This document shows, one piece after another, positions 5,846-12,029 of a stretch of 64,000 nt of DNA. Made by a program: the position numbers and the translations under genes. The notes under the pieces are model-generated. The model was not told where the DNA came from and did not search any database. It was given only the letters and a program-made list of their open reading frames with translations. Origin of the DNA: a virus; IMG/VR virus record IMGVR_UViG_3300042945_001831, positions 1 to 64,000 of that record. One strand, 5' to 3'. Every line of letters begins with the position of its first letter. The stretch's first letter is position 1.

Positions 5846-6520
5846 ATGGATCGCCAACAAGTTATCGCAAAGATTCAATCCATTCTGAAACTTCAGAATG
5901 GAACTTCTTTTGAGGGTGAGGCAGATGCTGCTGCAAAGATGATTGATAAACTTTGCAAGCAGTATGGTGTTACGATCACTGAGGCAACTGAAACTCAAGT
6001 TATGGATGAGGAGTTTCTTTCTTTCAAACGAGTGAATGTTGCTCTGACGACTCTTCTCAATGCGATTGCAACATTCTATGATGCAAAAGCATATATGAAG
6101 AATGGTGATTCCAAGTCTCTGCAAATCATCGGTAGTGAAGCACAACAAATCCAAGTGCGACTCTATTATGATTACCTTGTTCAGGTGATGGAGAAAGAGG
6201 CAGAAGTTGCACATAAAGCAGAAAAGATTATGTGCGACATCAAAGGAACTGTCATCTCTCGTAGTTTCAAACTTAATTTCCGCAAGGCATTTGCAGATAA
6301 AGTTGCGGAACGTCTGAAGGAAATGAAACTCGCAGAGAACCGAGTTCACGATGATGCCGATGCAGTGAAGAATAAACTCTCCACGATGCGATTCGGACGT
6401 TCCAAGAAGATGAATGGTGCTAGTGGTGCTGGTGCTTATTCTGGTGCAAACGTAGGTGCTGGTGTTTCTTTGAATCGTCAAGCATCTGGTTCTGTTACCA
6501 AGCAACTCTGTGGTGTGTGA
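5846..6520 (+). CDS. DUF2786-type protein
   Basis: 224 residues from ATG 5846; a GTG at 5843 is directly upstream. The N-terminal 45 residues (RQQVIAKIQSILKL, then ADAAAKMIDKLCKQYGV) match the DUF2786 pattern of a short helical domain found in phage and bacterial proteins. A conserved-looking middle follows, and then a basic helical part (FRKAFADKVAERLKEM). The C-terminus is a low-complexity Gly/Ala/Ser stretch (about 189-210) that looks flexible. The role of the family is unknown. It is the largest gene of its block and has its own TATAAT cassette. The long frame on the opposite strand is a shadow. Confidence 0.75.
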   Translation: MDRQQVIAKIQSILKLQNGTSFEGEADAAAKMIDKLCKQYGVTITEATETQVMDEEFLSFKRVNVALTTLLNAIATFYDAKAYMKNGDSKSLQIIGSEAQQIQVRLYYDYLVQVMEKEAEVAHKAEKIMCDIKGTVISRSFKLNFRKAFADKVAERLKEMKLAENRVHDDADAVKNKLSTMRFGRSKKMNGASGAGAYSGANVGAGVSLNRQASGSVTKQLCGV

Positions 6521-10368: not shown

Positions 10369-10398
10369 TTGACGTTTTCAGTCATTATATGATATAAT
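10369..10398 (+). promoter_or_regulatory. Sigma70-type promoter abutting a terminator
   Basis: TTGACG (10369-10374), an 18-bp spacer and TATAAT (10393-10398) preceded by TGA. The expected start at about 10404-10406 falls inside the left arm of the terminator hairpin, so transcripts begun here could not form the full hairpin. Confidence 0.65.
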
Positions 10399-10400
10399 AA

Positions 10401-10435
10401 CCCTATAAGATTTTAACAGTCTTATAGGGTTTTTT
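10401..10435 (+). terminator. Rho-independent terminator
   Basis: Perfect 10-bp arms CCCTATAAGA (10401-10410) and TCTTATAGGG (10420-10429) with a 9-nt loop, followed by six T (10430-10435). It ends the glycosyltransferase-like unit while overlapping the start of the next promoter's transcript. Confidence 0.85.
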
Positions 10436-10503
10436 GTGATTTATATAAACTACAAAATCCGTGTAAAAATCCGTCTTTTAAACCAAATTGGAGAAAATTT
10501 AAA

Positions 10504-10638
10504 ATGGCAGTATCAAAGAAAGAAATGAAGATTGAGAGTACTCCAAAAAATACTCGACAAGGTGATGGAAAAAATACTAAATATAGTGCAACAAGTCGTA
10601 ATGTTGCCCGTAAGCGTTATAGGGGTCAAGGTAAATAA
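10504..10638 (+). CDS. Small basic conserved protein (44 aa)
   Basis: A lysine/arginine-rich protein too short for most gene finders. It begins MAVSKKEMKIESTPKNTRQG and ends SRNVARKRYRGQGK. The composition suggests RNA or DNA binding. I recall nearly identical small proteins in several cyanomyoviruses at this place. It is preceded by GGAG (10491-10494), lies between two terminators and is served by the promoter at 10369, so it is a monocistronic unit. Confidence 0.7.
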   Translation: MAVSKKEMKIESTPKNTRQGDGKNTKYSATSRNVARKRYRGQGK

Positions 10639-10648
10639 TATTCAAGTG

Positions 10649-10675
10649 AGCATGTATTAATTTACATGCTTTTTT
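10649..10675 (+). terminator. Rho-independent terminator
   Basis: 8-bp arms AGCATGTA (10649-10656) and TACATGCT (10663-10670), with a T-run (10670-10675). Ends the small basic protein unit. Confidence 0.8.
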
Positions 10676-11627: not shown

Positions 11628-12029
11628 ATGGCAGTAACAATTTCTCGTAGTTTTAAGGACATTAGTTTGTCTTTTGCGAGGCATCCAGTTACGAATGATG
11701 TGATTGCACTTAAAAATGAGGATGCAATTAAAAAATCTGTTATAAATTTGGTCAGAACTCGTCTCGGTGAGAGATTTTTTAATGATTTGTTGGGTACATC
11801 TGTAGAAAATTCAATGTTTGAATTGCAAAATTCAGGCATAGGTTCATTTTTACAAGAAGAAATTACATCATTATTGAATAATTTCGAACCTAGAATCAAA
11901 TTAAGAACTGTTTTTGTTGATGAACCAGCAGACACAAATGATTTAAACATTAATGTTTCTTATGATATTGTTGGATTACCATTTCCGACACAAAATATAG
12001 AATTCATCTTACAACCAACAAGAGTATAA
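11628..12029 (+). CDS. gp25: gp25 baseplate wedge / lysozyme-like protein
   Basis: 133 residues, essentially the length of T4 gp25. gp25-like proteins (also W in P2) join the baseplate wedge to the sheath and are conserved in contractile injection systems. Typical features are visible: DISLSFARHPVTNDV, then NLVRTRLGERFFNDLLGTSV and the C-terminal VSYDIVGLP strand. It overlaps gp6 by one base, as in other T4-likes, and opens the baseplate operon. The alternative frame on the opposite strand is a shadow. Confidence 0.93.
   Translation: MAVTISRSFKDISLSFARHPVTNDVIALKNEDAIKKSVINLVRTRLGERFFNDLLGTSVENSMFELQNSGIGSFLQEEITSLLNNFEPRIKLRTVFVDEPADTNDLNINVSYDIVGLPFPTQNIEFILQPTRV

Follow-up and report, generated by a model that had tools for sequence, protein, structure and literature searches.

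A terminator and a promoter that overlap each other were found at a gene junction in a viral genome, and we consider it probable that this terminator disarms itself for the transcript of the downstream gene. The DNA analysed here (hereafter the window) is a stretch of 64,000 nt from the IMG/VR virus record IMGVR_UViG_3300042945_001831, which has 81,457 bases in total. At positions 10369-10435 of the window, a sigma-70-type promoter, TTGACG-18-TATAAT with TG ahead of the -10 element, adjoins a 14-bp hairpin and a T run, and this composite separates a glycosyltransferase-like gene from a small basic gene (Table 1). The virus looks like a T4-like cyanophage, because the gene at 11628 encodes the baseplate wedge protein gp25 (Pfam PF04965) and the upstream gene has its best annotated matches (ten examined) mostly in Synechococcus and Prochlorococcus phages.

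Table 1. Features of the terminator-promoter composite and its flanking genes (coordinates of the window)
Feature	Position	Strand	Basis or remark
Upstream gene, glycosyltransferase-like, 249 aa	9598-10347	+	stop codon 10345-10347
-35 element TTGACG	10369-10374	+	sequence; TTGAC 17-18 nt upstream in 29/29 sites found without that condition
Extended -10 element, TG-A-TATAAT	10390-10398	+	TATAAT 10393-10398, TG 10390-10391
Terminator stem, left arm	10399-10412	+	14 pairs with right arm; fold
Predicted transcription start, inside left arm	10405	+	predicted as the seventh base after the -10 element
Terminator stem, right arm	10418-10431	+	fold; covaries with left arm
Terminator T run	10430-10435	+	sequence
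Downstream small basic gene, 44 aa, phrog_516 (unknown function)	10504-10638	+	PHROG match
Second terminator-like hairpin, 3' of small gene	10648-10671	+	9 pairs, T run

The two hexamers of the promoter match at 11 of 12 positions, and their spacer of 18 nt lies within the 16-18 nt of sigma-70/sigma-A promoters. The hairpin begins at the base right after the -10 element and stands as a stable structure directly before the T run, the make-up of an intrinsic (Rho-independent) terminator. An earlier note on this DNA had correctly located TATAAT, a perfect 10-bp stem and a T run ending at 10435; the stem itself, however, has 14 pairs rather than 10, four of them G-C, with the perfect 10-bp stretch as its core (10401-10410/10420-10429). 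Because the stem is that long, its two outermost A-T pairs take the first two T of the run, and two of the six T are paired as a consequence. The 66-nt RNA folds at -19.5 kcal/mol, a value equalled by one of 200 shuffles (z -4.29). The -35 element follows the upstream stop codon after 21 bases, and 68 bases separate the T run from the small gene. A search of Rfam with E up to 1 gave six matches, none of which came close to its gathering score.

In the mechanism that we propose, a polymerase reading through the glycosyltransferase-like gene would make the whole 14-bp hairpin together with its U tract, and would be released near 10435. A second polymerase would use the host sigma-70-type promoter and start within the left arm, at about 10405; its RNA would hence lack the outer six pairs of the stem. 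The remaining helix would be weak and separated from the U tract, and this polymerase would go on into the phrog_516 gene.

The upstream protein matched phrog_1574 (unknown function; E 4.5e-119) and, more weakly, the glycosyltransferase family phrog_34859 (5.9e-07), and a Pfam search with it gave no match. The small gene of the window looks like a one-gene unit with a terminator-like hairpin on both sides, as the hairpin at 10648-10671 closes its 3' side; by eye, such a second hairpin was seen in 10 of the 21 rows of relatives with a readable small gene, the window included. A GGAG ribosome site lies at 10490-10493, and the hairpin of the composite has already ended at 10431. In the leader of the small gene (10454-10474), AAAATCCGT is present twice. 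G000 and G002 each contain one close pair of copies of this type, such a pair being absent from the other six sequences scanned, and copies resembling AAAACCGT were seen by eye ahead of the phrog_516 genes in several relatives, whether the composite is present or absent.

The composite recurs at the same junction in 40 places, counted once per locus. These lie on 35 contigs including that of the window (five contigs are represented twice) and comprise 25 distinct sequences, with a promoter spacer of 18 nt in 21 and of 17 nt in four. When the pattern consisted only of the -10 element and the left arm, 29 stretches were retrieved; TTGAC precedes each of them at a spacing of 17-18 nt, each has a right arm complementary to the left one as well as a T-rich tail, and the upstream gene is the same in all 29; the small gene was visible in 26. 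TGATA was present also in seven relatives found through the upstream protein. Among 90 loci found through the upstream gene, which are the 80 best of a longer list plus ten phages, seven carry the composite (L002-L006, L013 and L019). The small gene comes next in 30 of these loci, six with the composite and 24 without it; in 52 the stop codon is followed within 12 nt by the start of another gene, and eight have neither arrangement, one of which (L019) carries the composite. The composite is confined to one group, and the junction does not require it. No phage with the composite was found among 50,697 phage records by a 181-base query that contained the composite of L005. Inspection by eye of L009 revealed a different layout after the glycosyltransferase stop codon: the two arms of the hairpin flank the -10 element, one being within the promoter spacer and the other past the hexamer, which puts the -10 element in the loop; +1 would fall within the right arm.

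The stem is maintained by compensatory changes. We numbered stem positions from the first base 3' of the -10 element, and evaluated ten sequences found without a stem condition, save that the first two bases had been given for two of them. In these ten unconditioned sequences, 98 of 100 cells pair at positions 1-10; when all bases after position 10 were shuffled and the best register was chosen anew, 200 trials gave a mean of 69 and a maximum of 75. Two-sided changes that keep the pairing occurred at positions 1-8 and 10, including all six positions upstream of +1, those at positions 1 and 2 coming from the window alone. For the full set of 25 distinct sequences, pairing holds in 248 of 250 cells, and 11 distinct outer stems can be recognised. 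All 25 were collected by a promoter pattern, which fixed the +1 purine and much of the left arm in 15 of them, and their agreement in those features is thus partly by construction; the sequences are also related, so that the cells are not independent events. Since the predicted +1 comes after positions 1-6, RNA from the composite's own promoter would never contain them, and their upkeep points to selection on the read-through RNA.

An inverted repeat over a transcription start could instead act as DNA, namely as the operator of a repressor. Operators typically sit over the -10 element and +1, just where this dyad lies, but an operator accounts poorly for a stem that varies with compensation, for many G.U pairs (common at positions 8, 9 and 12) and for a T-rich tail. 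The frequent G.U pairs speak for a hairpin in RNA rather than a dyad in DNA, and we regard an operator as very improbable.

The earlier note had also predicted a start near 10405, which is correct for a discriminator of 6 nt and places +1 in the left arm. This seventh base after the -10 element is a purine in all ten unconditioned sequences (A in eight, G in two), and is preceded by T in eight. With RNA starting there, the predicted stability of the hairpin falls sharply: over the 25 sequences, the read-through RNA folds at -17.2 to -23.5 kcal/mol and the RNA from +1 at -1.4 to -6.9 kcal/mol. For the window, the full value of -17.3 kcal/mol drops to -4.4 kcal/mol, with eight weak pairs left that end 4 nt before the T run; escape of this RNA is predicted, and need not be complete. 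The gap between the residual helix and the stem base is 6-8 nt in 20 of the 25 sequences and 10 nt in L237. In three others (L013, L217 and L218), a different small hairpin (-3.3 to -3.7 kcal/mol) can form directly beside the tail when the RNA starts at +1. The prediction is sensitive to the start, as one at 10403 (position 5) would leave -8.9 kcal/mol in the window. The start, the termination and the escape all rest on sequence and fold predictions. That read-through RNA stops here and newly started RNA passes, the two-sided reading of the earlier note, is supported by the -35 element in all 29 stretches, the compensatory changes in the stem and the predicted fall in stability from +1.

If transcription started at 10399-10401, the whole hairpin would be at the 5' end of the RNA and the composite would be a promoter-proximal attenuator or the source of a short RNA, most transcripts stopping after about 35 nt unless something intervenes. 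Starts 1-3 nt after the -10 element are not usual, and in most relatives at this junction purines are found only at positions 1, 7 and 9 of the first nine. Such an attenuator is improbable, even if a start at positions 5-6 in a second family of composites, located ahead of gp33, would leave most of the stem.

Plain compaction deserves more weight, as an unlikely explanation with a real chance of being correct. In a dense genome, a functional terminator and a functional promoter may have been driven into each other, the bases being shared without consequence, and the new RNA would pass only since a start-proximal hairpin is inefficient in any case. For instance, L011 has at the same junction a separate terminator followed by TTGACG-17-TATAGT (by eye), which is an unshared version of the arrangement, and in the gp33 family the stem begins 3-5 nt after the -10 element, so that truncation is small. 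Mere adjacency, however, does not need the stem to extend into the -10 hexamer, as it does in most sequences at the glycosyltransferase-like junction, where AAT pairs with the tail; nor does it need a purine as the seventh base in ten of ten unconditioned sequences. We keep the self-disarming terminator as the preferred reading.

The composite stands out from the chance expectation in the window. Of 348 sites with a promoter score of at least 9 on both strands, it is the sole one with an abutting terminator hairpin (score 12); 60 simulated windows (first-order Markov) contained a mean of 0.18 composites at a score of at least 9 and none at a score of at least 11. No other composite in the 81,457-base contig reaches a score of 10, and the stem pattern occurs there at one place. 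Among 81 sites with the same promoter form (80 loci among the matches listed), nine had an abutting terminator hairpin, seven of which are at the glycosyltransferase-like/small-gene junction, and two of 72 sites of this form at other places (among the matches listed) had one, L284 being marginal. An abutting terminator was found for one of 97 consensus promoters (L463; 80 loci among the matches listed), and a control with pseudo-promoters (spacers of 19-20 nt, looser hairpin rule) gave a hairpin at two of 81. The hairpin rule of the controls required five T, which L213 fails though the composite is present.

One could still suppose that the terminator alone matters and that the promoter is a chance match in AT-rich DNA. 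Promoter-like matches are indeed common (105 in 15 kb, where 85.8 were expected), and false ones can arise from an adjacent coding gene (L045, L056 and L340). This explanation is nevertheless hardly credible, given that TTGAC stood at the proper distance in every one of the 29 sites found without asking for it. The three loci just named were not counted as composites: the promoter pattern matched within a coding gene and without a hairpin. Their small gene beside the glycosyltransferase gene encodes a lookalike of the -35 and extended -10 elements, which is a trap for promoter finders.

A genome-wide device was considered and rejected. We found five composites at a score of at least 10 in 1.78 Mb of strand (six records or contigs, G002 only to base 80,000) against six in 5.33 Mb of shuffles. 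The five are that of the window, the copy of the same junction in G003, two in DSL-LC02 (near 133542 and at 120692) and one in P-SSM2 (103823), and those at DSL-LC02 120692 and P-SSM2 103823 look weak. The scan was incomplete in that it missed G002's own copy of the junction, the tail of which has only four T in eight; scanning of ACG-2014f and Sf-CH5 gave no composite. On an unrelated contig, L337, a composite with a 9-pair hairpin was noticed at 6151 (minus strand).

Composites occur at two further kinds of place. In L463, one follows a short gene and precedes gp33 (phrog_254, late promoter regulator), with gp59 (phrog_269) and gp32 (phrog_224) coming after gp33. Loci found through gp59 had a composite in 32 of 80 cases (L539-L584; some loci are incomplete upstream), representing 17 distinct sequences, and a gp33-like start follows in 14 of these 17, none being recognised in three. 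The promoters are mostly perfect (TTGACA and TATAAT), and the stems are very different. This family belongs to an uncultured T4-like group; the gp59 of L463 was less than 60% identical in all 1,043 matching phage records. RNA from positions 5-7 would keep -5.9 to -15.5 kcal/mol in 14 sequences, with the helix 0-4 nt from the stem base, and disarming in the gp33 family is doubtful on these predictions. The third composite is that of DSL-LC02 near 133542. Here the TGA of the extended -10 element is at the same time the stop codon of a phrog_249 gene (porphyrin biosynthesis), which we take to be cobS-like. On the minus strand of L518 (about 1510-1575), which holds this composite, an ATG lies six bases past the stem, and the annotated start of the next gene is further upstream. 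It is attractive to speculate that T4-like aquatic phages make recurrent use of self-disarming terminators, which would have arisen separately before phrog_516, before gp33 and after the phrog_249 gene, and would work as one-way gates, stopping the incoming polymerase and handing it, once released, to the buried promoter. We put this forward tentatively, as a generalisation that may well prove wrong.

If the proposed mechanism is correct, about 70 bp would suffice to end one unit, insulate it and start the next, without a second terminator. It would follow a clear sequence rule, +1 inside the arm, and could serve as a compact insulator. Such a joint element would escape programs that look for terminators and for promoters separately. 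The gp33 composite would put a junction of this kind ahead of the phage late-transcription coactivator.

The transposase genes of IS10 and IS50 offer a parallel: their own RNA starts inside a hairpin, and only the read-through RNA folds fully. The phage composite would share both properties if +1 is 10405. The hairpin of IS10/IS50, however, hides a ribosome site and acts on translation, whereas that of the phage looks like a transcription terminator. Sequestration of the IS10 type was not found in the window, as GGAG sits in a small local helix that is identical whether the RNA begins at 10405 or at 10369.

The position of +1 inside the arm, with a terminator that would disarm itself, is a variant geometry for which we found no precedent in the open-licence papers searched. 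The available parts of PMC10134795, PMC8046335, PMC3247240, PMC8450116 and PMC12594629 contained nothing on a self-disarming overlap, and cyanophage promoters and terminators have been predicted by separate programs (PMC3037559). A released polymerase can restart at a nearby promoter, with 37% downstream reinitiation in vitro in a mixture of holo- and core enzyme (PMC6978380). For such recycling, an overlapping promoter would be the nearest possible restart site; the recycling described there is polymerase behaviour in vitro, whereas the phage composite is a sequence element.

By its anatomy, the phage composite falls under the reported inter-operon terminator-promoter overlap, in that the stem adjoins the -10 element and the predicted transcribed region starts in the stem. 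This overlap (operon concatenation) is described for tufB-secE of Salmonella in PMC7055797, which cites experimental work on it; just as in the phage, some sequence belongs both to the terminator of the first unit and to the promoter of the second. In E. coli MG1655, we found a match of the form TTGACG-18-CATCAT whose -10-like part falls within the tufB terminator hairpin, in its left arm and loop, and a further -10-like TATAAT lies 100 bp downstream. The phage composite differs from tufB in that its -10 element is outside the left arm and its predicted +1 inside, and in that both of the units which it separates are phage genes.
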